Shown: in pieces, positions 1,422 through 52,029 of the stretch
Numbering within the stretch: position 1 is the first letter of the stretch
How the letters are laid out: each line of letters begins with the position of its first letter
Translations under genes and position numbers: made by a program
Virus record (IMG/VR): IMGVR_UViG_3300030110_003801
Location: 46,139-110,138 of that record
DNA from: a virus
Length of the DNA stretch: 64,000 nt
Reading direction: 5' to 3' (one strand)
The notes under the pieces: model-generated
Database searches by the model: none
What the model was told of the DNA's origin: nothing
Seen by the model: only the letters and a program-made list of their open reading frames with translations

Positions 1422-3260
1422 ATGATACAAGACTTATATCAACTAGGAATCAATTTAAAAAGAACTTCAGGGCAAGAAAAAACAATATGTCCTAAATGTT
1501 CTCATACTAGAAAGCCTAAGAATCAAAAAGAGCCATGCTTGTCTGTAAATATAGATGAAGGTATATACAATTGCCATCATTGCGGATGGAATGGATCTGT
1601 ACAACAAAAAAATAAATACAAGAAGCCTTATAAAGAGTACATATTACCCAAGTACAACCCTACAGACTTGCCTGATAATGTTGTAATGGAGTTTCAGAAA
1701 AGAGGGATATCACCTTCAACACTTATGGCTAACAAAGTTACTTGTGAAAAGGTTTATATGCCTCAGAAACAAAAGGAAGTAACGTGTATAATATTTAACT
1801 ATTTCAGGAACGGGCAAATAGTAAACAAAAAATACAGGACAGCGGACAAGATGTTTAAGATGGAGTCTGGTGCTGAATTGATATTCTACAATATAGATAA
1901 CATCCAGGACAATCAGGTTGTAATATGTGAAGGTGAAATGGATGTGTTGGCTTTTTTTGAAGCAGGAATTCGATACGCTATCTCTGTTCCTAACGGTGCC
2001 AGTAAAGGCAACAACAATCTTCAATACCTAGATAACTGTGCATCATTTTTCGAAAACGGCATACCTAAAGAAATATATATAGCCACTGACGGTGATGAGC
2101 CAGGGACTAGATTAGGAAAAGAATTATCAAGAAGATTAGGCAGAGAGAGATGTAAGATTGTTAAATACCCTGATGGATGTAAGGATGCTAATGAGGTTCT
2201 TTTAAAACACGGAGAAGAAGGGGTGCTTAAGCTTATAACAGACGCTGAATTTTACCCTATAAAAGGTATTGTTCCTATGACTGAAATTAGAAAAGGAACT
2301 TTAGACTTGTTTAGAAATGGTGTAGCGAAGGGAGATGTTATTGGCTTGGAGTCAACATACGATGATGAACTAGGTCTTGATGATTTAGTTTCCTGGAAAA
2401 CAGGCTTAGTTTACACCTGGACAGGTATACCTACTCATGGTAAGTCATCCATGGTTAACCAGGTAGAGACTTTACTTGCTGTAAATTGTGGTTGGAAGTT
2501 TGGAATATACTCTCCAGAGCATTTACCAATACAGTTTTTAGCCTATAGGTATGCGGAAATAATTGTAGGCAAAGCCTTCTTTCACGGGAAAGGATTAAGA
2601 ATGAACGAAATGGAACTTGAGTCAGCATTAGATTTTATTGAGAAACATTTCTTTTTTATCAAACCAAAATCCGGGTCAATAATGCTTGATGAGTTAATCG
2701 ATCTTGGCAAACAGCTGGTTTTAAGACACGGAATAAAGGGCTTTACAATTGATCCATGGAATAAGATTAACCATCAATATGGAAAGTATGGTTCCGAAAC
2801 ACAGTACATCGAAAAGGCACTTAACAAGATTACAATGTTCAAACAAAACTTTGATGTTGCAGTTTTCTTAGTAGCACACCCAAGAAAAATGGACAAAGTA
2901 AAAGACAAAAACAGCCTGGACAATGGACAGTACGAGGTGCCGACTTTATACGATATCTCTGGGTCAAAATCTTGGTACGACATGACAGACGTAGGTATTG
3001 CTATATATCGGAATAGGGTGTTAAATATCACTACAGTATATATACAAAAAATAAAATGGAAACACTTAGGTGAAGAAGGTATGACAGATTTTAAATACAT
3101 CTCAAATTGTAGTAGATTTTATCCATGCAGTAAAGATGGGCAGAAAACACTGCAATTAAATGGGTCTTGGATTGACAAGGAACCTGAACAAACATCTTTT
3201 GAGGATGATTGGCTCAATGATGATGTTTTTAGAAAAAGCAGACCAGAAGTGCCTTTTTAA
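1422..3260 (+). CDS. Primase-helicase (zinc ribbon, TOPRIM, DnaB/gp4-like), copy A
   Basis: 612 aa. Zinc ribbon at the N-terminus (CPKC at 23-26, HHCGW near 53-57), TOPRIM fold around 160-240 with VVICEGEMDVLAFF and the acidic TDGDEPG, then a RecA-type helicase with Walker A GIPTHGKSS near 334-342, FTIDPWN as Walker B and LVAHPRKM as the following strand. This is the T7 gp4 layout: primer synthesis joined to a hexameric replicative helicase. The protein ends in PEVPF, resembling the tip of SSB tails. It is only distantly similar to the second copy at 47475-49388. A structured non-coding stretch starts right after the stop. Confidence 0.93.
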   Translation: MIQDLYQLGINLKRTSGQEKTICPKCSHTRKPKNQKEPCLSVNIDEGIYNCHHCGWNGSVQQKNKYKKPYKEYILPKYNPTDLPDNVVMEFQKRGISPSTLMANKVTCEKVYMPQKQKEVTCIIFNYFRNGQIVNKKYRTADKMFKMESGAELIFYNIDNIQDNQVVICEGEMDVLAFFEAGIRYAISVPNGASKGNNNLQYLDNCASFFENGIPKEIYIATDGDEPGTRLGKELSRRLGRERCKIVKYPDGCKDANEVLLKHGEEGVLKLITDAEFYPIKGIVPMTEIRKGTLDLFRNGVAKGDVIGLESTYDDELGLDDLVSWKTGLVYTWTGIPTHGKSSMVNQVETLLAVNCGWKFGIYSPEHLPIQFLAYRYAEIIVGKAFFHGKGLRMNEMELESALDFIEKHFFFIKPKSGSIMLDELIDLGKQLVLRHGIKGFTIDPWNKINHQYGKYGSETQYIEKALNKITMFKQNFDVAVFLVAHPRKMDKVKDKNSLDNGQYEVPTLYDISGSKSWYDMTDVGIAIYRNRVLNITTVYIQKIKWKHLGEEGMTDFKYISNCSRFYPCSKDGQKTLQLNGSWIDKEPEQTSFEDDWLNDDVFRKSRPEVPF

Positions 3261-3393
3261 CAAAGATCGTTCTTTGATAGAACAGGGGCAGAACTTTACA
3301 AGCTATTTTACTTTCAATGCTTTTAGCGTAGGAACTATTGCATATTCACTCCCAATAAGTCGAATAAGGAAATAGCTAGCCCCTGTTCATTTT
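3261..3393 (+). ncRNA. Candidate structured RNA 1 (hairpin plus 10-bp closing stem)
   Basis: Directly after the primase stop there is a hairpin CAAAGA/TCTTTG (3261-3276). Next GAACAGGGGC (3280-3289) is perfectly complementary to GCCCCTGTTC (3379-3388), and inside it AGCTATTT (3301-3308) pairs perfectly with AAATAGCT (3370-3377). A further small stem TATTG/CAATA lies near 3338-3358. The outer 3' strand is followed by ATTTTTAAA, so transcription may stop there. No convincing gene covers it; a frame running into it from 3160 overlaps the primase gene and is not credible. Could be a leader, a terminator of unusual size or an independent small RNA; the stems are seen, the role is not known. Confidence 0.55.
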
Positions 3394-3430
3394 TAAACAT
3401 TAAAAGTATAACCTTAAAAACTAAATATTT

Positions 3431-3580
3431 ATGGAAGAATTATTAGAAGAATATCTGGAAGAGCATGGACATTCAAAAGAAACATTTCAAGCTTTTATTG
3501 GAGAAGTTCAAGAAGCACTATTGTATCATGCTATCAAAATTGATGGAAGAATAATTTATGACGATAACAATTACGAGTAA
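3431..3580 (+). CDS. Small acidic protein, 49 aa
   Basis: ATG at 3431 after an A/T-rich leader (ctaaatattt), TAA at 3580. Strongly acidic start (MEELLEEYLEEHG), helical, ends in DDNNYE. No family recognised. Lies between structured RNA 1 and the small helix-turn-helix gene in the same direction. Confidence 0.55.
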   Translation: MEELLEEYLEEHGHSKETFQAFIGEVQEALLYHAIKIDGRIIYDDNNYE

Positions 3581-3613
3581 AAGAAGGAGAAAATTTATTA
3601 ACGACAAAATAAA

Positions 3614-3796
3614 ATGAAAGACAGATCAATAAATTGGCTTAAAAAAAACAAGCCCTTTCTTAATGTGAATATGATTGAGAAGGAATTACACATGCCTAAA
3701 AGTACTTTGCAAAAAGCACTGAGTGGTGTTAGAGAACTACCTGAAAACTGGCTAGCTTCCGTGAATAAATTCGTTCAAGAATTAAAAACATTTTAG
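3614..3796 (+). CDS. Small helix-turn-helix-like protein, short form, arm A
   Basis: 60 aa. Pattern WLKKNKPFL...IEKELHMPKSTLQKAL.G.R.LP.NW reads as one helix-turn-helix-like unit. It is clearly related to the 62-aa protein at 45735-45923 and to the C-terminal half of the next gene (3799-4128). Two bases separate it from that gene, and arm B holds the same two partners in reverse order. Probably DNA-binding, but no defined family was assigned. Confidence 0.65.
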   Translation: MKDRSINWLKKNKPFLNVNMIEKELHMPKSTLQKALSGVRELPENWLASVNKFVQELKTF

Positions 3797-3798
3797 TA

Positions 3799-4128
3799 AT
3801 GGACAGAGAAGTAAAAAAAAGAAAATCAGTTCATACATTTAGGTGGACAGATGAAACAGTTATAGATTTTGTGAAAGAAAACATTTCAATTGGAAGTATT
3901 AGCCATTTGTATTTAGTTAAAGCTATCGAAAACTTTAAAAACTCTGAACGCAACAAAGACATTGTTTGGATTAAAGAAAACAAAGAACTACTAAGCATTG
4001 CTGGTATTGAAAAGGCTGCTGGGCTACCTGAAACATCGTTACTAAAAGCCGTTAATGGAGGACAAAAATTTCCTAAGAAATGGGAGGCTAAATTAAATCA
4101 ATTTGTTAAGAAAATAAAATCAAAATAA
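3799..4128 (+). CDS. Helix-turn-helix-like protein, long form, arm A
   Basis: 109 aa. Basic N-terminus with HTFRWTDETVIDFVKE, then the same unit as its neighbour: WIKENKELLSIAGIEKAAGLPETSLLKAVNG...FPKKW. Homologous over its whole length to 45397-45732 (HTFVWTDELVLEF; GMPETTLLKAVNG; FPKKWEA). The pairing of a long and a short form in both early arms suggests they act together, perhaps as regulators; this is inference. A structured RNA candidate begins 14 bases after the stop. Confidence 0.65.
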   Translation: MDREVKKRKSVHTFRWTDETVIDFVKENISIGSISHLYLVKAIENFKNSERNKDIVWIKENKELLSIAGIEKAAGLPETSLLKAVNGGQKFPKKWEAKLNQFVKKIKSK

Positions 4129-4142
4129 CTTAATTAAAATAT

Positions 4143-4315
4143 AACTCTCCAGGCTAATGGATAAGCAAGTGAGTATTGGTAATCACTCCAGTTGAAAAAG
4201 AATAACAATCAGATTGTTATATCACAACACTTCCAAGAGTGTTAGTTTTGAAGTTAGATGGTACTGTGTCGTAGGATTACACTACTATCATTCCACTTGG
4301 AGGACTTGGAGAGTT
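4143..4315 (+). ncRNA. Candidate structured RNA 2 (multi-branched, about 173 nt)
   Basis: AACTCTCCA (4143-4151) pairs perfectly with TGGAGAGTT (4307-4315), followed by TTTTAA. Inside lie four separate stems: AGTGA/TCACT (4168-4187, 10-nt loop), ATAACAAT/ATTGTTAT (4202-4220, 3-nt loop), AACACTT/GAGTGTT (4226-4243, one G-U), and GATGGTACTGT against ACACTACTATC (4257-4289; 10 pairs with one mismatch). It fills exactly the gap between a stop at 4128 and a start at 4333, with no reading frame in it. It recalls a cloverleaf but lacks a T-arm and fits no tRNA rule. Sits upstream of a 77-aa gene and the P-II operon, so it could be a riboswitch-like leader or a free RNA. Confidence 0.6.
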
Positions 4316-4332
4316 TTTAAAACTGTAAATAA

Positions 4333-4566
4333 ATGGCAAAAACATACGTAACATTTGGAGGAGATCACGCTCACTCCGTAAACGGAAAAACATTAGACAA
4401 AGATACTGTGGCAGTATTTGAAGCAAAAGACAGTACCGAGGGCAGAGAAAAGGCTTTTAAATGTTTTGGGCCAAAATTTTGTTTTGAATACCATGACACC
4501 GAATGGGATGAAGATAAGATGAAATTCTTTCCAAAAGGGTATGTCAAACTAGACGTAAACCTATAA
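4333..4566 (+). CDS. Hypothetical protein, 77 aa
   Basis: 77 aa, acidic, starting MAKTYVTFGGDHAHSVNGK and ending with a tail rich in aromatic and charged residues (YHDTEWDEDKMKFFPKGY). It looks like a compact mixed alpha/beta protein. No family recognised. It lies between structured RNA 2 and the promoter of the P-II operon; the latter starts within a few bases of its stop. There is no counterpart at this place in arm B. Confidence 0.65.
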   Translation: MAKTYVTFGGDHAHSVNGKTLDKDTVAVFEAKDSTEGREKAFKCFGPKFCFEYHDTEWDEDKMKFFPKGYVKLDVNL

Positions 4567-4573
4567 TATAGTT

Positions 4574-4615
4574 TAACTTTGCATTTTTAATTTTTAACCA
4601 ATAAATAGATCGCTT
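4574..4615 (+). promoter_or_regulatory. Bacteroidetes-type promoter and leader of the P-II operon, copy A
   Basis: TAACTTTG at 4574-4581 fits the Bacteroidetes -7 box TAnnTTTG, with the ATG 35 bases further on. The leader holds a 19-nt sequence (4589-4607, starting AATTTTTAACC) that is identical before the second P-II gene (49406-49424). I see no clear -33 TTG element. Conservation of box and leader in both copies supports a real promoter for P-II, amt and porin. Confidence 0.6.
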
Positions 4616-4954
4616 ATGAAAAAGGTGGATTGTATCATCAGAAAAGCTCAATTTGATGAGGTGAAATCAGCTCTATTGGCAGTTAAGGTAACTTTTTTTA
4701 GTTACTGGGATTGTACAGGAGTTGGTAACGAGCAGCTCGATAGGAAGTATCGAGGTATTCCATATTCTACTTCTGAAATTCAGAGGAGGTATCTTTCAAT
4801 CGTCGTTAGTGACGAGTTTTTAGAAAGGACAATTAACGCTATTCTTGATTCTGCCTACACAGGCGAAGTCGGAGACGGCAAAATCTTTGTCAGCGATGTG
4901 CAAGAAGCATATCGAATCCGAACAAAAGAAAGAGGAAATCAAACACTTAATTGA
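4616..4954 (+). CDS. glnB: P-II nitrogen regulatory protein, copy A
   Basis: 112 aa, the usual P-II length. P-II proteins are trimers that sense ATP/ADP and 2-oxoglutarate and plug Amt channels through the T-loop. Seen here: T-loop Tyr50 (E. coli Tyr51) in YRGIPY, B-loop TGEVGDGKIFV (82-92), C-loop RIRT (100-103). Unusual: the T-loop base is one residue shorter than in E. coli GlnB (GVGNEQLDRK between G35 and Y45), so the 2-oxoglutarate ligand Gln39 is displaced or Glu, and the Lys58 position is Arg57. The gene stops 8 bases before the preferred amt start. 90 of 112 residues match copy B. Together with amt it is an auxiliary metabolic gene, likely acquired from a flavobacterial host. Confidence 0.95.
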   Translation: MKKVDCIIRKAQFDEVKSALLAVKVTFFSYWDCTGVGNEQLDRKYRGIPYSTSEIQRRYLSIVVSDEFLERTINAILDSAYTGEVGDGKIFVSDVQEAYRIRTKERGNQTLN

Positions 4955-4962
4955 AAGAAGAA

Positions 4963-6198
4963 ATGGAAATGTTAACAGTAAATAACCTGTGGATGATGGT
5001 CTGTACAGGTTTGGTGTTCTTTATGCACTTAGGATTTAGCTTGTTGGAGATAGGACTGACAAGACAAAAAAATACCATCAACATCCTATTCAAAAATATC
5101 TTCATTATTTGTATGGGACTTTTAGTCTACTACATAGGAGGATTTAATCTCATGTACCCTGGGTTTGAAGAGGGTAGCATGGGGATTATTAAATTCGCTG
5201 GTTTTGGGATAGCTTCACCAGAAAATGGTATGACTGCCGAGTACGCTTCAGGAGGTTATACTTGGTGGACAGATTTCTTGTTCCAGGGTATGTTTGCCGC
5301 AACAGCAGCAACTATTGTAAGTGGGGCTGTGGCAGAGCGTATCAAGCTAACAAGCTTCATGCTATTCAGTCTAATCTATGTAGGGCTTGTATACCCTATA
5401 GTAGGTAGCTGGAAGTGGGGAGGAGGATGGCTAGATGGCCTAGGATTCTACGACTTTGCAGGAAGTACATTAGTTCACTCTGTTGGCGGATGGGCAGCAT
5501 TAGTGGCTGTATGGCTGTTAGGCCCAAGGATTGGAAAGTATCTTAAAATAAACGGAAAGTCTTTCCCTATTTTAGGTCATAATATTCCTTTTGCTACGGC
5601 AGGAGTATTAATATTATGGCTTGGTTGGTTTGGATTTAACGGTGGTAGCGTATTAAGTGCTGACCCAGCGTTAACATCACTAACCTTAGTTACTACTTGT
5701 CTTGCAGCAGCTGCAGGTGGTTTTGGTGCCGCTATTACATCTTTAATTAAGGATAAAGCATTTGATTTAACAATGTTCCTTAATGGAATCTTGGGAGGAT
5801 TAGTCGCTATCACTGCAGGTGCCGATCAGATGAGTCCAAACGAATCTGTTGTAGTTGGGCTTATTGGAGGTATCATAGTAGTCCTTGCGGTTGCCTTGTT
5901 AGACAAGCTTAAATTAGATGATCCAGTAGGAGCCATCGCAGTACACCTTGGATGCGGAATCTGGGGTACTCTTGCAGTGGGTATCTTTGGAGAATTAGCT
6001 AGTGGTAGTCAATTCCTTACACAACTTATAGGGGTTTCTGTAATTGGAGCTTTCTGTCTGATTACTTCTTTTATAATACTATTCACCATTAAGAAAACTA
6101 TGGGGTTAAGAGTTAGTAAAAAAGAAGAGCTTGAAGGATTGGACAGCTCTGAGCATGGCATGCCTGCTTACTCTGACTTTCGTCTTAATGAACATTAA
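4963..6198 (+). CDS. amt: Ammonium transporter Amt, copy A
   Basis: 411 aa inner-membrane channel for ammonium. Conserved elements: FQGMFAATAATIVSGAVAER (107-126) with the gating Phe, Asp164 in YDFAG, twin pore histidines His172 (LVHSVGG) and His328 (AVHLGCG), signature GWFGFNGGS (221-229), and a full cytoplasmic tail GLRVS...EGLD..EHG (381-399) that P-II needs for docking. About 11 membrane segments and no cleavable signal peptide. The start is set at ATG 4963 because copy B begins at the same residue (MEMLTVNN); an in-frame TTG at 4951 overlaps the P-II stop and is less likely. By hand alignment 373 of 411 residues match copy B. All pore residues are intact, so it should work. Confidence 0.97.
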   Translation: MEMLTVNNLWMMVCTGLVFFMHLGFSLLEIGLTRQKNTINILFKNIFIICMGLLVYYIGGFNLMYPGFEEGSMGIIKFAGFGIASPENGMTAEYASGGYTWWTDFLFQGMFAATAATIVSGAVAERIKLTSFMLFSLIYVGLVYPIVGSWKWGGGWLDGLGFYDFAGSTLVHSVGGWAALVAVWLLGPRIGKYLKINGKSFPILGHNIPFATAGVLILWLGWFGFNGGSVLSADPALTSLTLVTTCLAAAAGGFGAAITSLIKDKAFDLTMFLNGILGGLVAITAGADQMSPNESVVVGLIGGIIVVLAVALLDKLKLDDPVGAIAVHLGCGIWGTLAVGIFGELASGSQFLTQLIGVSVIGAFCLITSFIILFTIKKTMGLRVSKKEELEGLDSSEHGMPAYSDFRLNEH

Positions 6199-6203
6199 TA
6201 ACC

Positions 6204-6222
6204 AGGGGGTGTTATGCCCCCT
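6204..6222 (+). promoter_or_regulatory. Intercistronic hairpin between amt and porin, copy A
   Basis: AGGGGG (6204-6209) pairs with CCCCCT (6217-6222) around a 7-nt loop, followed by TTAATTTT. It lies between the amt stop and the porin start. The second cassette has a hairpin of the same stem sequence at 51018-51036 with a different loop. Possible attenuator or mRNA-processing/stability element that sets porin level against Amt. Confidence 0.6.
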
Positions 6223-6237
6223 TTAATTTTACACAAA

Positions 6238-7230
6238 ATGAAAAAACTATTTACATTAATATTATTAGCTACTACAATACTATCTTACGGTCAGGATAGT
6301 TTAAAGTCAAACCTTTCTTTAGAAGGAAGTGTAGACGTTTACTACAGAAGAAACCTTAGTACAGCCAAAACAGATTTAGCACCAGCTACATCGTTTGCTA
6401 ACTTAAATGGTTTCAGTTTGGGTATGTTCAACCTTATTAGTTCTTACGATACAAAGAACACAGGTGTTGTGGCAGACCTAGTTTTTGGGCCTAGAGGAGA
6501 AGATGCTGTTTTCTTATCTACCGGGAGTTCTAACATCATTAATCAGCTTTATGTTTATTGGGATGTTAGTAATAGGATGACCTTAACAATGGGTAACTTT
6601 AACACCTTTCTTGGGTATGAAGTGATTAGCCCTTCGGGAAACTTTAATTACTCAACTTCTTACATGTTTTCTTATGGCCCTTTTTCTCATAGTGGTTTAA
6701 AAGCAGACATCGCTTTGTCTGATGACTTTACTGCCATGTTAGCTGTTTTAAACGCAACTGATGCAACGGATTTCAACCCGTCTAATTTCAGTACGCTAGG
6801 TGCTGTACTAGCATATAAGAGTACGTATTTAAACTTCTTGTTTGGAAAGCAAGATCCCGCATCTGAAGCTACATTTCAAATTGATTTGACAGGTGGTTAT
6901 AATTTGTCGAAAAAGTTTTACCTAGGGGTTAATTCAACGTACAATGATACTGATGGAAACGGCTTCTACGGAGCAGCTTTATACCCTCAATATTCTTTTG
7001 GTAAATTAACCGCAGGTTTGAGAGGTGAATACTTTGCTGAAACTGGAGACGGAGTTGGAGCAATTGGCCCAGATGCAAATGTTATAAACTTTACTACTAC
7101 TTTAGATTACGCTAAAGAGAATCTAAATCTAAAGTTAGAGTATAGATTAGACAAAGCCAGTGAGCAAGTATTTGAACAAAAGGATAACCTATCTAGTATT
7201 GTACTAGCAGCGGTTTATTCTTTTAATTAA
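6238..7230 (+). CDS. Outer-membrane beta-barrel porin (OmpL/bbp2-like), copy A
   Basis: 330 aa. Start at ATG 6238 gives a clean signal peptide (MKKLFTLILLATTILSYGQ) and matches copy B; a longer frame from 6214 would run through the hairpin. The mature part is a series of short alternating strands rich in Tyr, Gly and Asn (MGNFNTFLGYEVISP, YSTSYMFSYGPFSHSG) and ends in the aromatic strand AAVYSFN expected of an outer-membrane barrel. It resembles the OmpL-like porin family placed beside amt in Bacteroidetes. Likely role: let ammonium cross the outer membrane towards Amt. A phage-encoded porin could also alter host surface properties. Confidence 0.85.
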   Translation: MKKLFTLILLATTILSYGQDSLKSNLSLEGSVDVYYRRNLSTAKTDLAPATSFANLNGFSLGMFNLISSYDTKNTGVVADLVFGPRGEDAVFLSTGSSNIINQLYVYWDVSNRMTLTMGNFNTFLGYEVISPSGNFNYSTSYMFSYGPFSHSGLKADIALSDDFTAMLAVLNATDATDFNPSNFSTLGAVLAYKSTYLNFLFGKQDPASEATFQIDLTGGYNLSKKFYLGVNSTYNDTDGNGFYGAALYPQYSFGKLTAGLRGEYFAETGDGVGAIGPDANVINFTTTLDYAKENLNLKLEYRLDKASEQVFEQKDNLSSIVLAAVYSFN

Positions 7231-8307: not shown

Positions 8308-8569
8308 CGCCCTTGTAAACGAGCTTGAGCGACTACCGAAGGTTGCTTTTACAATAATGTTAAAATTTATAGAAATGGGAAAAGAGAAAGACGAATTATT
8401 CAAACACTTACGTGACAAGACAGATGAAGCGTATCTGCTAAATCAAATACTAAACAACTATAAAAATCTTGTTTCAGAAATAGAGTTGGCAACAGAGCAA
8501 AACAATTTTGTTCAAGTCAGGAACCTTCTAGCAAAGCGTAAAATAGAGAAACACAAGTACGAATTATAA
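8297..8569 (+). CDS. Hypothetical helical protein, 90 aa
   Basis: Overlaps the previous gene by 11 bases. Predicted as a helical protein (ELERLPKVAFTIMLKFIEMG; EIELATEQNNFVQVRNLLAKRK). No recognised domain. Confidence 0.55.
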   Translation: MNTNALVNELERLPKVAFTIMLKFIEMGKEKDELFKHLRDKTDEAYLLNQILNNYKNLVSEIELATEQNNFVQVRNLLAKRKIEKHKYEL

Positions 8570-30591: not shown

Positions 30592-31310
30592 TTCGGCAAA
30601 ATTTAGAAAACTATAACTGTAAATAAGAGACCCTTATAGCATTTCTATTTACACTAAGTTAAAAATTATTCACACTAAACCCAAAATATAGCGGTTTTTT
30701 CTCAATATCCACCCCAAACACCCCATAAGTACCCCTCTTTTTGAAGCGCCACCCCTTTCGCATACAGGGCATTTCTAAGACATCTTTATCTCAAACATGT
30801 ACTACGACAACCAAATCGACTAGAAGTAAGCAGGGCAGGGTTTTAGAATAAATCTCACGAGGGGGGTAATAATATTTATTATTTGCATTGGCGCGCGAAT
30901 CGAAAGGCGGTGGGGTGTTTTTCAGCTCAAAATTGGGTCCCATTAAAAAAATGTTTCCTCAATACCCTAATGTTTACAATACTTTGCGGAGTATAACAAT
31001 ACAAAACGTTTCCATAATAGTGATAGTAATATAGTACTCAATAACCGTATTTCTATTTAACATAATAAGTATTATAAGAAACGGCTTTTTAACATAACCC
31101 TTTGAAAACTAGGCAATTAATCAAAATTGTTTATCAATTAAGCCGAAAACCTAAACAAATTGACCGTTTTTTTTAATCTGTTTTTATTTCGCTTCAGTTA
31201 GGTTATCATTTTTTAACCCTTTATTTGTTGCCCACCAAAAACGGAAATTTCAAAACGTGTTGTTTCTTGCTTCTTATTCTCTTAATAGGTTAATAGTGTT
31301 TTATTGTGTG

Positions 31311-31388
31311 AAACGGTAACGGAAACGGAAACGAAAAACAGGAGCTAAAACAAGAGCTAAAACAGGAGCTAAAAACAGGAGCTAAAAA
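31311..31388. repeat. Tandem short repeats: AACGGA units and four AGGAGCTAAAA units
   Basis: 31311-31333 holds consecutive AACGGT, AACGGA, AAACGGA, AAACGA units. 31338-31388 holds four adjacent copies of C(A)AGGAGCTAAAA(A), with the second copy changed to AAGAGCT. They lie in the gene-free region and may be binding sites or slippage products. Confidence 0.7.
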
Positions 31389-31616
31389 GCCCATAAATAA
31401 AAAAAATGATATATAAAAGAAAAACGTAAAAAAAAATATCAATTTTGCGCCTAATCGATTAACTAAGTTTTTTAATACTAGGATAAGCAAGAGTTAAAAA
31501 AAGTGCGTTAAAATGGCTTAAAATGAGTTTTAGATATTTTTACAAATTTTGTCATGTTAATTTTTTTTATTATACGCATGCGGGCGTTTCTATATTAAAA
31601 AAAGGTATTTTGCTCT

Positions 31617-31817
31617 TAACTACTTGATAATCAATAACTTGCAAATAACCAATAAAGCTAACTAATTGATTTATAGTAAGTTAGCATTTCACCACTATCA
31701 TCAAAAAAAACGTTTCCCCTTGTAACTACTTGAAAAACAGACAGTTAACCAACTAAAAAATTTAACCAAAAAAAAAGTGAAAAAAAATTAAAAAAAATTT
31801 TACTTGTAACTAATTGA
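31617..31817 (+). repeat. Four iteron-like direct repeats TAACTA(A/C)TTGA
   Basis: Copies at 31617-31627, 31659-31669, 31723-31733 and 31807-31817, all in the same orientation and set 42, 64 and 84 bases apart. A reverse element (CAAGTAGTTA) occurs at about 31822-31831. Repeats like these in an A/T-rich gene-free region resemble initiator binding sites of an origin; this has not been shown. Confidence 0.5.
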
Positions 31818-31936
31818 AAAACAAGTAGTTATAAATAAGAAGTAAAAAAAAATGATGGAAACGAAAAAAAAGTTTTGTTTTATCGAAAGTAATGACGTAG
31901 ATTTGTAGAAGACAAAAACATATAACCCCAATGAAA

Positions 31937-32424
31937 CCGACCTACAGGTCGGGAAGGTAAAATATATACATATACGAGATAACGAGAAGCTGTGCTTCTT
32001 CAGGACTGCTGTGAGTAAGCCCGAAATTCGAACCCCATACGGGGGTTATCGGACGGTAGGATATACTGCTCACGGAATGAAACTTCGATGCTACGATTAA
32101 TTTTGTAGGGGGGAAACCCGTATTCGATTCCGTAATCTTTAGGCGTGGAAGCTAGAGGACAACCCTTGGCAACACGTAACCGAAACAAGCGAAGCGTTGT
32201 AATGGACAGGATACGTGTATCCAAACCAACACGACGGTACGTGGGCTGTAACAAGTGTGCCTGTATGGGACAGGGCAATTTACGGCGTATAAATGAGGCG
32301 ACACACAAGGACTTTTAATGAGCTTTGGAGGAGGCTGTGGGACACTTGTGTCCTGTTAAAAAAGTGGTAACTCTTTACGTAGGTGAATACGTTTTGAGAG
32401 ACGGTTCGATTCCGTCGGTCTCAC
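31937..32424 (+). ncRNA. Candidate large structured RNA with T-arm-like 3' end
   Basis: About 490 bases, visibly richer in G and C than their flanks, without a credible gene. Stems seen: CCGACC/GGTCGG (31937-31952), AGAAGC/GCTTCT (31985-31999), AACCCC/GGGGTT (about 32024-32048), ACGGAAT (32072-32078) against ATTCCGT (32127-32133) with a GGG-GAAA-CCC tetraloop hairpin inside, GGATAC/GTATCC (near 32210), CCTGT/ACAGG (near 32264), GGACAC/GTGTCC (near 32340) and GACGG-TTCGATT-CCGTC (32400-32416). The last is a perfect tRNA T-arm, but the rest of a tRNA is missing. Phage-borne ornate large RNAs (GOLLD, ROOL) lie next to tRNAs in this way; family membership is a guess. Confidence 0.5.
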
Positions 32425-32447: not shown

Positions 32448-32906
32448 ATGAAGATTTCAGTAGAAATTTCGCAAGATGCTACGGTACGTAGTATGGAATT
32501 TGATATTCCAAAAACTGAGCTTAAGGCTCAAATCAATGCAGTATCTGACAGTTTAGCGTCGTACATTCACAAGCGTGTGAAAAGTGCGAAGTCGCAAAAC
32601 AAACATTATTTGAAGGCTAACAAGCCATTGAGTATTCGTATTCAAGCAGGTACGAAAGTAGTATTTAATTCTAAAAAGTTGGATTGTTTAGACGCGCTAG
32701 GCTTCGAGTTGAAGTTTAATAGTCTACGCACACCCCAACAAATCCAAAACCTCAGTCGAAAGTTAAAGTTTGCTATGGACGAATTCTGTACGGACTTCCG
32801 TATTGTAGACTTCGGTGATGACGTACTGGATTCCGTGGAGAGAACTATTGACGCTATGGACGTTCAATGGCTTAAGGAGTATTTAGCACAAAAGGAAGCA
32901 AAGTAG
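32448..32906 (+). CDS. Hypothetical protein, first gene of early arm B
   Basis: 152 aa. Beta strand at the start (MKISVEISQDATVRSMEFDIPK), then helices and a further beta segment; two stretches rich in Lys (HKRVKSAKSQNKHY). No family recognised. It follows the structured RNA by 24 bases and precedes the tRNA, and being the first arm-B gene it may act early in infection. Confidence 0.65.
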   Translation: MKISVEISQDATVRSMEFDIPKTELKAQINAVSDSLASYIHKRVKSAKSQNKHYLKANKPLSIRIQAGTKVVFNSKKLDCLDALGFELKFNSLRTPQQIQNLSRKLKFAMDEFCTDFRIVDFGDDVLDSVERTIDAMDVQWLKEYLAQKEAK

Positions 32907-32957: not shown

Positions 32958-33029
32958 GCCCCATTCGTCTAATGGTTAGGACGCACGGGTTTCATCCGTG
33001 AAATAGGAGTTCGAATCTTCTATGGGGTA
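32958..33029 (+). tRNA. tRNA-Glu (anticodon TTC)
   Basis: Full cloverleaf: acceptor GCCCCAT/ATGGGGT (first pair G-U), D-arm GTCT...GGAC, anticodon stem CACGG/CCGTG with loop GTTTCAT (anticodon TTC at 32991-32993), T-arm AGGAG-TTCGAAT-CTTCT with one G-U pair. No CCA is encoded. It sits between two early genes, just after the structured RNA region; the phage is rich in GAA codons, which it would serve. Confidence 0.88.
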
Positions 33030-33044
33030 CTAAATTTATATACT

Positions 33045-49430: not shown

Positions 49431-49769
49431 ATGAAAAAAGTGGAAGCAATTATCAGGAAGAGTGTCTTCGCTGATGTTAAAACCGCACTCATGGACGTTA
49501 AGGTAACTTTTTTTAGTTATTGGGACGTAACCGGAGTCGGTAATGAAAAGCTCGATATGCGTTATCGAGAAATTGAGTATAGTACTTCTGATATACAACG
49601 GAGGTATTTAAGTATCATTGTGTCAGATGAGTTTTTAGACAGGACTGTTAAAGCCATACTAGACTCTGCTTATACAGGAGATATTGGAGACGGCAAAATC
49701 TTTGTCAGCGATGTGCAAGAAGCATATCGAATCCGAACAAAAGAAAGAGGAAACCAAACTTTAAACTAA
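49431..49769 (+). CDS. glnB: P-II nitrogen regulatory protein, copy B
   Basis: 112 aa. Keeps Tyr50 (YREIEY), B-loop TGDIGDGKIFV and C-loop RIRT. Like copy A it has a T-loop base one residue shorter than E. coli GlnB and Arg at the Lys58 position; in addition Gly47 of YRG is replaced by Glu, giving YREIEY, a change at a conserved T-loop site. Its 3' end (49686-49753) is identical in DNA to copy A over 68 bases while the rest has drifted. Whether it still plugs Amt or responds to 2-oxoglutarate is open. Confidence 0.95.
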   Translation: MKKVEAIIRKSVFADVKTALMDVKVTFFSYWDVTGVGNEKLDMRYREIEYSTSDIQRRYLSIIVSDEFLDRTVKAILDSAYTGDIGDGKIFVSDVQEAYRIRTKERGNQTLN

Positions 49770-49776
49770 AAGAGAG

Positions 49777-51012
49777 ATGGAAATGTTAACTGTAAACAAC
49801 GTGTGGATGATGGTCTGCACAGGATTGGTGTTCTTTATGCACCTTGGCTTTTCTTTCTTAGAGATTGGATTAACTCGCCAAAAAAACACTATCAACATCT
49901 TGTTCAAGAATATCTTCATCATCTGTATGGGACTTCTTGTTTACTACATTGGTGGTTTTAATTTAATGTACCCCGGATTTGAAGAAGGGGACTTAGGTAT
50001 TCTTAAGTTCGCAGGATTCGGAATCGAGGCTCCTGCAAATGGAATGACTGCCGAGTATGCTTCAGGAGGATATACTTGGTGGACAGACTTCTTGTTCCAA
50101 GGTATGTTCGCAGCAACAGCAGCAACTATTGTAAGTGGAGCTGTGGCTGAACGTATCAAACTAACTAGCTTTATGCTTTTTAGTATTATTTACGTAGGTC
50201 TAGTTTACCCAATAGTAGGCTCTTGGAAATGGGGAGGAGGATTTCTTGACAAATTAGGATTCTACGACTTTGCCGGAAGTACTCTTGTTCACTCAGTAGG
50301 TGGATGGGCAGCACTAGTATCTGTATGGTTATTAGGTCCTAGAATCGGAAAGTATCTTAAAGTAAACGGAAAGTCTTTCCCTATTTTAGGACACAACATC
50401 CCCTTTGCTACAGCAGGAGTATTAATCTTGTGGCTAGGTTGGTTTGGATTTAACGGTGGTTCAGTACTTAGTGCAGACCCTGCGTTAACCTCTTTAACTC
50501 TTGTCACCACTTGCCTTGCGGCAGCAGCAGGAGGCTTTGGAGCTGCTATTACATCTTATCTTAAGAATAAGACATTAGATTTAACTATGTTTCTTAATGG
50601 AATTTTAGGAGGTCTAGTTGCTATTACGGCAGGTGCTGACCAAATGTCTCCAAATGAATCTGTTGTAGTTGGACTTATAGGAGGTATTATAGTCGTGTTT
50701 GTCGTTTCTCTTTTAGACAAGGCTAAACTAGACGACCCTGTAGGAGCAATAGCAGTACATTTAGGTTGTGGAATATGGGGAACATTAGCGGTAGGTATTT
50801 TTGGAAACCTAGCTAGTGTGAGCCAATTCATATCACAATTCTTTGGAGTTGTAACAATAGCGGGATTCTGTCTAGTAACTTCTTTTATAATTCTGTTTAC
50901 CATTAAAAAAACTATGGGACTTAGAGTTAGCAAAAGTGAAGAGCTAGAAGGACTAGATAGTTCAGAACATGGAATGTCATCTTATCCCGACTTCCGACTT
51001 AATCAACATTAA
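49777..51012 (+). CDS. amt: Ammonium transporter Amt, copy B
   Basis: 411 aa. All elements named for copy A are kept: gating FQGMFAATAATIVSG, YDFAG Asp, both pore His (LVHSVGG; AVHLGCG), GWFGFNGGS and the C-terminal EGLDSSEHG tail. 38 differences by hand, mostly in loops (EEGDLGILKF, GGFLDKLGF) and near FGNLASVSQF. Seven bases from the P-II stop. A second complete, probably active channel in one phage is unusual. Confidence 0.97.
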   Translation: MEMLTVNNVWMMVCTGLVFFMHLGFSFLEIGLTRQKNTINILFKNIFIICMGLLVYYIGGFNLMYPGFEEGDLGILKFAGFGIEAPANGMTAEYASGGYTWWTDFLFQGMFAATAATIVSGAVAERIKLTSFMLFSIIYVGLVYPIVGSWKWGGGFLDKLGFYDFAGSTLVHSVGGWAALVSVWLLGPRIGKYLKVNGKSFPILGHNIPFATAGVLILWLGWFGFNGGSVLSADPALTSLTLVTTCLAAAAGGFGAAITSYLKNKTLDLTMFLNGILGGLVAITAGADQMSPNESVVVGLIGGIIVVFVVSLLDKAKLDDPVGAIAVHLGCGIWGTLAVGIFGNLASVSQFISQFFGVVTIAGFCLVTSFIILFTIKKTMGLRVSKSEELEGLDSSEHGMSSYPDFRLNQH

Positions 51013-51017
51013 AAATC

Positions 51018-51036
51018 AGGGGGCTAAACACCCCCT
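51018..51036 (+). promoter_or_regulatory. Intercistronic hairpin between amt and porin, copy B
   Basis: AGGGGG (51018-51023) and CCCCCT (51031-51036) around a 7-nt loop, followed by TTAATATTT. The stem equals that of copy A although the loop differs, so the structure rather than the sequence of the loop appears to be kept. Confidence 0.6.
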
Positions 51037-51051
51037 TTAATATTTCATAAA

Positions 51052-52029
51052 ATGAAAAAGATATTTACAATTTTATTGGCACTAAGTGCATCACTTATTA
51101 CAGCTCAAGATAGCTTGAAATCAAACCTTTCATTAGAAGGAAGCGCTGATATTTATTACAGAAAAAACCTTAGTACAAACAGCACAGGTGTTGCTCCTGC
51201 TACATCTTTTGCTAACCTAAATGGTTTTAGCTTAGGTATGTTTAATCTTATCGGTTCTTATGACACTAAGAATACAGGATTTGTAGCCGACTTAGTATTT
51301 GGACCTAGAGGAGAAGATGCTGTTTTCTTATCGTCAGGAAACTCTAGCATTGTCAATCAGCTTTACGCTTATTGGGATGTAAGCGATAACCTAACTTTAA
51401 CAATGGGTAACTTCAATACCTTCTTAGGCTATGAGGTTATTAGCCCCGCAGGAAACTTTAACTACTCAACTTCTTACATGTTTAGTTATGGTCCATTCTC
51501 CCATAGTGGTCTGAAAGCCGACTTCAACCTATCTGAAGATTTTACAGGTATGGTTGCTGTCTTAAATGCTACCGATGAAACAGAGTTTAACTCCACCAAC
51601 TACAATACGCTAGGTGGTCAGTTGGCTTACAAGAGTACGTACTTAAATGCTATATACGGTAAGCAAGACTCAAGCTCTGAGGCTACTTTTCAAATTGACT
51701 TGACAGCAGGTTATGACTTGTCAGAAAAGTTCTATCTTGGAGTGAACACTACATACAATGAAACAGAAGGTAGTGGTTTTTACGGGGTAGCCTTATATCC
51801 TCAATATGCAATTCGCAAATTGACAACAGGATTAAGAACAGAGTATTTTAGCGAGTTTACTTCTTCCGGAAATACAGACGTTATCGGATTAACAGCTACG
51901 CTTGATTATTCAGTAGAGAATTTAAACCTAAAATTAGAGTATAGGCTTGATAAGGCTGATGATAAAATCTTTGAAACAAAGGATAATTTATCTAGCATAG
52001 TTCTAGCAGCGGTATATTCTTTTAATTAA
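51052..52029 (+). CDS. Outer-membrane beta-barrel porin (OmpL/bbp2-like), copy B
   Basis: 325 aa. Signal peptide MKKIFTILLALSASLITAQ; the mature part begins DSLKSNLSLEGSADIYYRKN and keeps MGNFNTFLGYEVISP and SYMFSYGPFSHSGLK. It ends AAVYSFN like copy A. The copies diverge more in the middle and near the end (FTSSGNTDVIG against GDGVGAIGPDAN) than the Amt proteins do, as expected for surface loops. No terminator follows, so the transcript may run on into the small downstream genes. Confidence 0.85.
   Translation: MKKIFTILLALSASLITAQDSLKSNLSLEGSADIYYRKNLSTNSTGVAPATSFANLNGFSLGMFNLIGSYDTKNTGFVADLVFGPRGEDAVFLSSGNSSIVNQLYAYWDVSDNLTLTMGNFNTFLGYEVISPAGNFNYSTSYMFSYGPFSHSGLKADFNLSEDFTGMVAVLNATDETEFNSTNYNTLGGQLAYKSTYLNAIYGKQDSSSEATFQIDLTAGYDLSEKFYLGVNTTYNETEGSGFYGVALYPQYAIRKLTTGLRTEYFSEFTSSGNTDVIGLTATLDYSVENLNLKLEYRLDKADDKIFETKDNLSSIVLAAVYSFN

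Follow-up and report, generated by a model that had tools for sequence, protein, structure and literature searches.

A GC-rich region at the head of an operon in a crAss-related phage: a probable non-coding RNA with part of a tRNA at its end

The locus and its neighbourhood

The window studied here is a stretch of 64,000 nucleotides, corresponding to bases 46139-110138 of a viral source record of 128,733 bp. Its large terminase shows ~21-25% identity to those of Crassvirales and other phages and also matches phrog_6681, and the window phage is a crAss-related virus of bacteria. The closest relative found by the terminase search, L002, has a terminase 95% identical to that of the window, and its alignment to the window stops near 31140, before the region of interest. 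In the window the structural and groES genes run leftward and the other genes rightward, and the two are separated by an AT-rich noncoding stretch (26.5% GC over 31000-31936), after which a region of about 490 bases comes as the first item on the rightward side. Within this AT-rich divergent intergenic region, repeats of the AGGAGCTAAAA type are observed at 31323-31390, where the GC skew changes its sign, and these are possibly a replication origin or sites for a regulator.

The region on the rightward side (31932-32424, + strand, 47% GC) is probably a non-coding RNA at the start of the operon, ending in a piece of tRNA. The original prediction had pointed to nearly 500 bases free of genes, and in fact neither strand carries a plausible gene over 31932-32424. 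The longest ORF there has 102 aa, lies on the minus strand with a TTG start, and gives no match in Pfam and no tblastn match in phages; a coding reading was dropped as the ORFs of the region have no relatives. The predicted richness in G/C was borne out as well, with 47.3% over 31937-32424 against 36.3% in the window and 26.5% in the stretch just upstream, a value at least as high as that of every other sampled 488-nt stretch in the 64 kb. Downstream, an ORF of 152 aa belonging to no known family (32448-32906, + strand) starts 24 nt past the RNA region, and no + strand terminator was found between the two. It is followed by a tRNA-Glu(UUC) gene (32958-33030, + strand), the only tRNA found in the whole 128 kb record, and A-CTAAA comes after this tRNA as well as after the RNA region. 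The predicted position next to a tRNA holds in a loose sense only, as the tRNA-Glu lies 534 nt downstream with the 152-aa ORF in between.

Upstream of the region, a script scan for the Bacteroidetes-type promoter consensus detected TTTG-N20-TAGATTTG (a TAnnTTTG box) at 31874-31905 on the + strand, about 540 nt before the start codon of the 152-aa ORF. By chance the pattern is expected ~0.006 times in any 100 nt of one strand at this composition, and it is not enriched window-wide (4 found against 2.95 expected), so that only the position of this match speaks for it.

As regards folding, the minimum free energy (MFE) of the region is -151 kcal/mol against -138 +/- 5.6 for shuffled sequences (z -2.3), and none of the 100 shuffles is as good, while local 120-nt windows within the region have a mean z of -0.97, where the background averages -0.51. 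At least eight stems had been proposed; these are in themselves not clearly beyond chance, as the local z stays near background. Several hairpins can be read on the + strand. CCGACC-UACA-GGUCGG at the 5' end (31938-31953) and GGAUA-CGUG-UAUCC (32209-32222) both appear in the MFE and centroid structures, a possible AACCCC/GGGGUU hairpin (32031-32047) is absent from the MFE structure, and the expected GAAA tetraloop is present as GGG-GAAA-CCC at 32110-32119. It is followed at 32123-32133 by a second copy of TTCGATTCCGT (family D6), the T-loop sequence of the T-arm at the 3' end. Direct searches found no sequence homologue of the window RNA, so that it has no covariation of its own; single-protein searches with the 152-aa ORF, a 538-aa ORF and the peptidase were equally unsuccessful, and so was a terminase search of genome contigs.

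The T-arm and the 3' end of the region

The 3' part of the region contains a perfect T-arm, GACGG-UUCGAUU-CCGUC (32400-32416, + strand), with the consensus loop of tRNAs. The claim of a T-arm outside a regular tRNA is exactly right at these coordinates, since default ARAGORN and Rfam both leave it uncalled. Chance alone would give 0.13 matches to the strict pattern in 64 kb, and 3 are present in the window, the other two being in the tRNA-Glu and in an A/T-rich sequence at 8506.

What surrounds the T-arm is less clear-cut. A candidate tRNA-like domain spans 32330-32424 (+ strand) and matches the tRNA-Sec model with 18.7 bits and an E-value of 0.54. Its acceptor would join GAGGCUG (32331-32337) with CGGUCUC (32416-32422) in 7 of 7 pairs, followed by a hairpin at 32340-32353, UGGUA at 32365-32369, a hairpin at 32377-32392 and the T-arm; when folded alone, 32330-32424 takes a multi-arm form with z -2.2. 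By our estimate, ~0.4 acceptor partners as good as that at 32331 are expected in the region by chance. Alternatively the T-arm may be extended by 5 pairs of UGAGA with UCUCA across a 2-nt bulge (32395-32423, + strand), and 27% of the flank shuffles are equally stable. Both candidate acceptor pairings are within chance, and the idea that the window forms one continuous minihelix hairpin was dropped, the flank pairing not being significant.

Known RNA families were searched with Rfam at the gathering threshold and then among all matches with E-values up to 10; for the RNA region the former gave none and the latter none that convinces. The relation to GOLLD or ROOL suggested in the original prediction found no covariance-model match at either level, nor did the tmRNA and group I/II intron models match, and the GOLLD/ROOL and intron identities were dropped for lack of a match. 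A tRNA cloverleaf in the region is accepted neither by RF00005 nor by default ARAGORN, which calls only the tRNA-Glu in the window.

Syntenic relatives and anticodon-less minihelices

An alignment of two peptidase paralogues of the window (38163 and 41186) led to 14 IMG/VR loci, most of them with an ORF related to the acidic one of 538 aa, and five of whose records carry a terminase related to that of the window. In L058, L059, L066, L067 and L069, leftward genes are followed by a rightward short ORF and ~550-780 nt devoid of long genes; by eye, a groEL-like gene stands among the leftward genes of L066, L067 and L069. Moreover in L066 and L067, the divergent gene layout, the acidic ORF and the peptidase come in an order like that of the window, apart from a short basic ORF ahead of the RNA that is missing from the window. 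A comparison with relatives, as originally proposed, thus gave a noncoding stretch at a like place in L066, L067 and L069 and no sequence homologue. The phages are distant, their RNAs cannot be aligned to that of the window, and the leader RNAs of L066 and L067 have no blastn match to it.

The noncoding stretch of L066 and L067 is very probably a structured RNA. The two align across it, their RNAalifold consensus energy is -177.4 against -115.8 +/- 6.7 for column-shuffled alignments, and 9 compensatory pairs are observed against 1.55 in such alignments (0 of 100 shuffles), both of which point to structure in this pair. In L093, which was considered as a structural twin of the window RNA, the GC is raised but no folding signal is found, and it was set aside.

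At its 3' end, the stretch of L066, L067 and L069 terminates in GGUAGGU-AUGGUA-...-GGGG-UUCGAUU-CCCC-(G/A)CCUACC-A, that is, an acceptor stem, the D-loop core AUGGUA and a T-arm, while the anticodon arm is absent. A search pattern built from these minihelices matched 12 IMG/VR stretches, including the seeds and two duplicate pairs. Each match builds its acceptor stem from a sequence of its own, except L094, which lies inside a tRNA cluster and fits the minihelix poorly; the acceptor of L087 is limited to 5 pairs. Over the six distinct minihelices that were not seeds, 94% of the cells pair and 21 double changes are counted, compared with 6.5 after shuffling (0 of 500 shuffles); the linker and the T-loop are set by the search pattern and are hence not evidence, so that the stems are what counts. 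The paired positions covary across unrelated phages. The minihelices, composed of an acceptor, an AUGG(U) linker and a T-arm, lie at 8186-8227 in L066, 8432-8472 in L067, 7795-7835 in L069, 5237-5280 in L086, 3664-3707 in L090, 5362-5405 (-) in L092, 7000-7044 in L093, 7326-7369 in L096 and 75021-75063 (-) in NC_055902.1 (cr131_1). The last is one of the records outside the training of the minihelix model in which full-length elements were detected, and its element lies unannotated, with a tRNA-Leu on one side and a CDS on the other; weaker matches of the model occur elsewhere, some of them ordinary tRNAs. As the minihelices of L087, L090 and L092 lie between or beside ordinary genes, the element is not tied to large RNAs. 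It recurs in intergenic positions in crAss-like phages. The lack of a common acceptor sequence argues for a role in processing or structure rather than for charging by a single synthetase. ARAGORN makes no call on the minihelices tested, and Rfam gives no hit on any of those scanned. In the open-access literature on phage minihelices, anticodon-less tRNA-like elements and phage RNAs cut by RNase P we found nothing on point, and two crAss papers screened by keyword mention tRNAs and suppressors, and no such minihelix elements.

Two other tRNA-like elements were observed along the way. In the crAss-like L131 (NC_055892.1), a 58-nt element on the reverse strand (1500-1557) scores 44.9 bits with the Rfam tRNA model; its anticodon arm appears to be absent, and it is possibly a link between tRNAs and minihelices. 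In L063 and L064, an element at about 6139-6267 has the acceptor, D-arm and T-arm intact with a long unusual region in place of the anticodon arm, and ARAGORN does not call it.

Compared with these, the window has, like the R1/R2 minihelices (L066, L086, L090, L092, L093, L096, NC_055902.1), a T-arm with a UUCGAUU loop ahead of an ORF, and in both an A and then a C come after the stem. With L066, L067 and L069 it has in common the operon position, a gene-free stretch of raised GC and an ORF that starts 24 nt later. Unlike the minihelices, it has neither the AUGGUA linker nor a proven 7-bp acceptor beside the T-arm, and the R1 model fits only its T-arm half (18.6 bits, model positions 16-35), the match ending at the T-arm. 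With the linker absent and the acceptors within chance, the window RNA was not filed as a member, and its link to the minihelices is one of position and T-arm.

The short ORF and the RNA behave as a cassette in the relatives. Between L066 and L069, several flanking stretches are about 89-94% identical, no match is seen across the ORF and RNA, and the similarity returns at the minihelix; nor do L058 and L059 match across their ORF and noncoding stretch. The cassette is in fact wholly different between L066 (6797-8178) and L069 (6375-7787), and likewise between L058 and L059 (about 2479-5143), the flanks being 72-96% identical. It gives the impression of having been exchanged or of evolving very fast, as a hypervariable or swapped module of the early region would.

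A leader RNA with a processing end and its rivals

The reading we prefer, with a probability of about 0.5, is that of a 5' leader non-coding RNA of ~490 nt whose tRNA-like 3' end is cut from the mRNA by RNase P and RNase Z. The RNA would be the leader of the rightward operon, transcription presumably starting just past the promoter match at 31874-31905. It would fold into several helices, for which the window itself gives weak support and the L066/L067 RNA gives covariation if it is a counterpart. The 3' end would be a tRNA-like element built on the observed T-arm, with its remaining parts conjectural, and the host's RNase P and RNase Z may recognise it, cutting 5' and 3' of it respectively, and thereby free the RNA from the mRNA of the 152-aa ORF; the tRNA-Glu, one gene further, would likewise be cut by tRNA enzymes. 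The released RNA may be stable and have a role of its own, and the exchange of the corresponding cassette between close relatives would suggest one in host interaction rather than housekeeping. Minimal helices of acceptor and T-arm are substrates of RNase P. The originally predicted structured RNA with a tRNA-like end that guides processing appears to fit the evidence, mainly because the syntenic covarying RNA ends in a minihelix whose stems covary, and we propose that the window RNA works like the RNAs bounded by minihelices.

The same region may also be a plain structured 5' untranslated leader that is never released and tunes the stability or translation of the 152-aa ORF, the T-arm being a protective or regulatory hairpin. 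The ORF 24 nt away, the missing terminator and the ~540 nt that separate the start codon from the promoter match agree with this; it leaves unexplained why a near-consensus tRNA T-arm lies exactly at the end and why a minihelix stands at the corresponding place in relatives, and we regard it as possible but unlikely. Rather improbable is a decayed tRNA gene at 32330-32424, a functionless relic after unrelated noncoding DNA. The nearby tRNA gene and the 95-nt stretch with its 7/7 acceptor pairs, perfect T-arm and weak tRNA-Sec match are in its favour, but a decaying gene would not keep only its T-arm intact, the high GC across all 490 nt stays unexplained, and loosened tRNA calls are equally frequent in shuffles. 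In fact ARAGORN at the 80% threshold proposes both a tRNA-Thr at 32330-32424 and a tmRNA at 31932-32424, and in shuffled bodies keeping the real T-arm a + strand call is obtained in 63% (tRNA) and 43% (tmRNA), for which reason these calls were given no weight and both readings were dropped. The tmRNA would be a divergent one-piece molecule with an internal tag and with TGAAACC (31932) paired to a GGTCTCA at its 3' end. Permuted tmRNA genes do occur in other crAss-like records. Apart from the shuffles, it is opposed by the failure of default ARAGORN and the Rfam tmRNA models; no tag with a typical hydrophobic end was found, and ARAGORN proposes only an atypical ETSEAL under "tag not identified". 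We hold such a tmRNA very improbable.

An isolated tRNA 3' end in a phage frequently turns out to be an attP core; on this reading the T-arm with the acceptor end could duplicate the 3' terminus of a tRNA gene in the host and serve for integration. No integrase was identified, and since the contigs of 84,980 species genomes nowhere contain the 21-nt end GGTTCGATTCCGTCGGTCTCA, this reading was dropped as highly improbable. A divergent GOLLD or ROOL RNA is credited just as little. GOLLD and ROOL are frequently found close to tRNA islands (PMC12286853), and the window RNA resembles them as a candidate large, GC-richer phage RNA with a tRNA in the neighbourhood; unlike them it matches no model (E up to 10), it is shorter than GOLLD, and it has a single tRNA in 128 kb in place of an island.

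Returning to the leader RNA with a processed tRNA-like end, its proposed mechanism equals that of MALAT1 and NEAT1, long non-coding RNAs whose 3' ends are cut at a tRNA-like element by tRNA enzymes. MALAT1/mascRNA and NEAT1/menRNA are described as the only long non-coding RNAs matured in this way (PMC12941219). They differ in being mammalian and without homology to the window RNA, for which cleavage is a proposal. With tmRNA (RF00023, RF04321) the window RNA has in common the length and the T-arm at a tRNA-like end, and it differs in having no model match and no credible tag. More tentatively, minihelices in Crassvirales and their relatives might be RNase P/Z cut sites that punctuate operons and end large exchanged non-coding RNAs, that of the window included; the window RNA might then, on equally tentative grounds, be a phage counterpart of MALAT1/mascRNA processing. 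If RNase P and RNase Z cut the minihelices, the tRNA machinery would punctuate phage mRNA and non-coding RNA as in mitochondria. The roles of large phage RNAs such as GOLLD and ROOL are an open problem, and a structured leader RNA bounded by a minihelix would suggest a testable rule to locate their ends, as well as a way to find more of them through minihelices that tRNA programs miss.

Besides, several observations were made aside from the RNA region. Permuted tmRNA genes (RF04321) are found in the crAss-like records L141 (1474-1842) and L143 (1483-1687), with the proposed tags GNNFVTDYTAIGA and GNINVNDYTKLAA. Among phage records, L027 has a match to the RAGATH-1 hammerhead ribozyme at 2202-2265 (-), and L141 a match to the RAGATH-22 RNA at 852-1018. 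In the window itself, two paralogous sets can be seen by eye at 4616-7230 and 49431-52029, each apparently encoding a regulator of the PII type together with an ammonium transporter and a secreted protein of 325-338 aa; one of the ammonium-transporter-like genes matches phrog_33847, and the two sets are possibly a duplicated nitrogen-uptake module.
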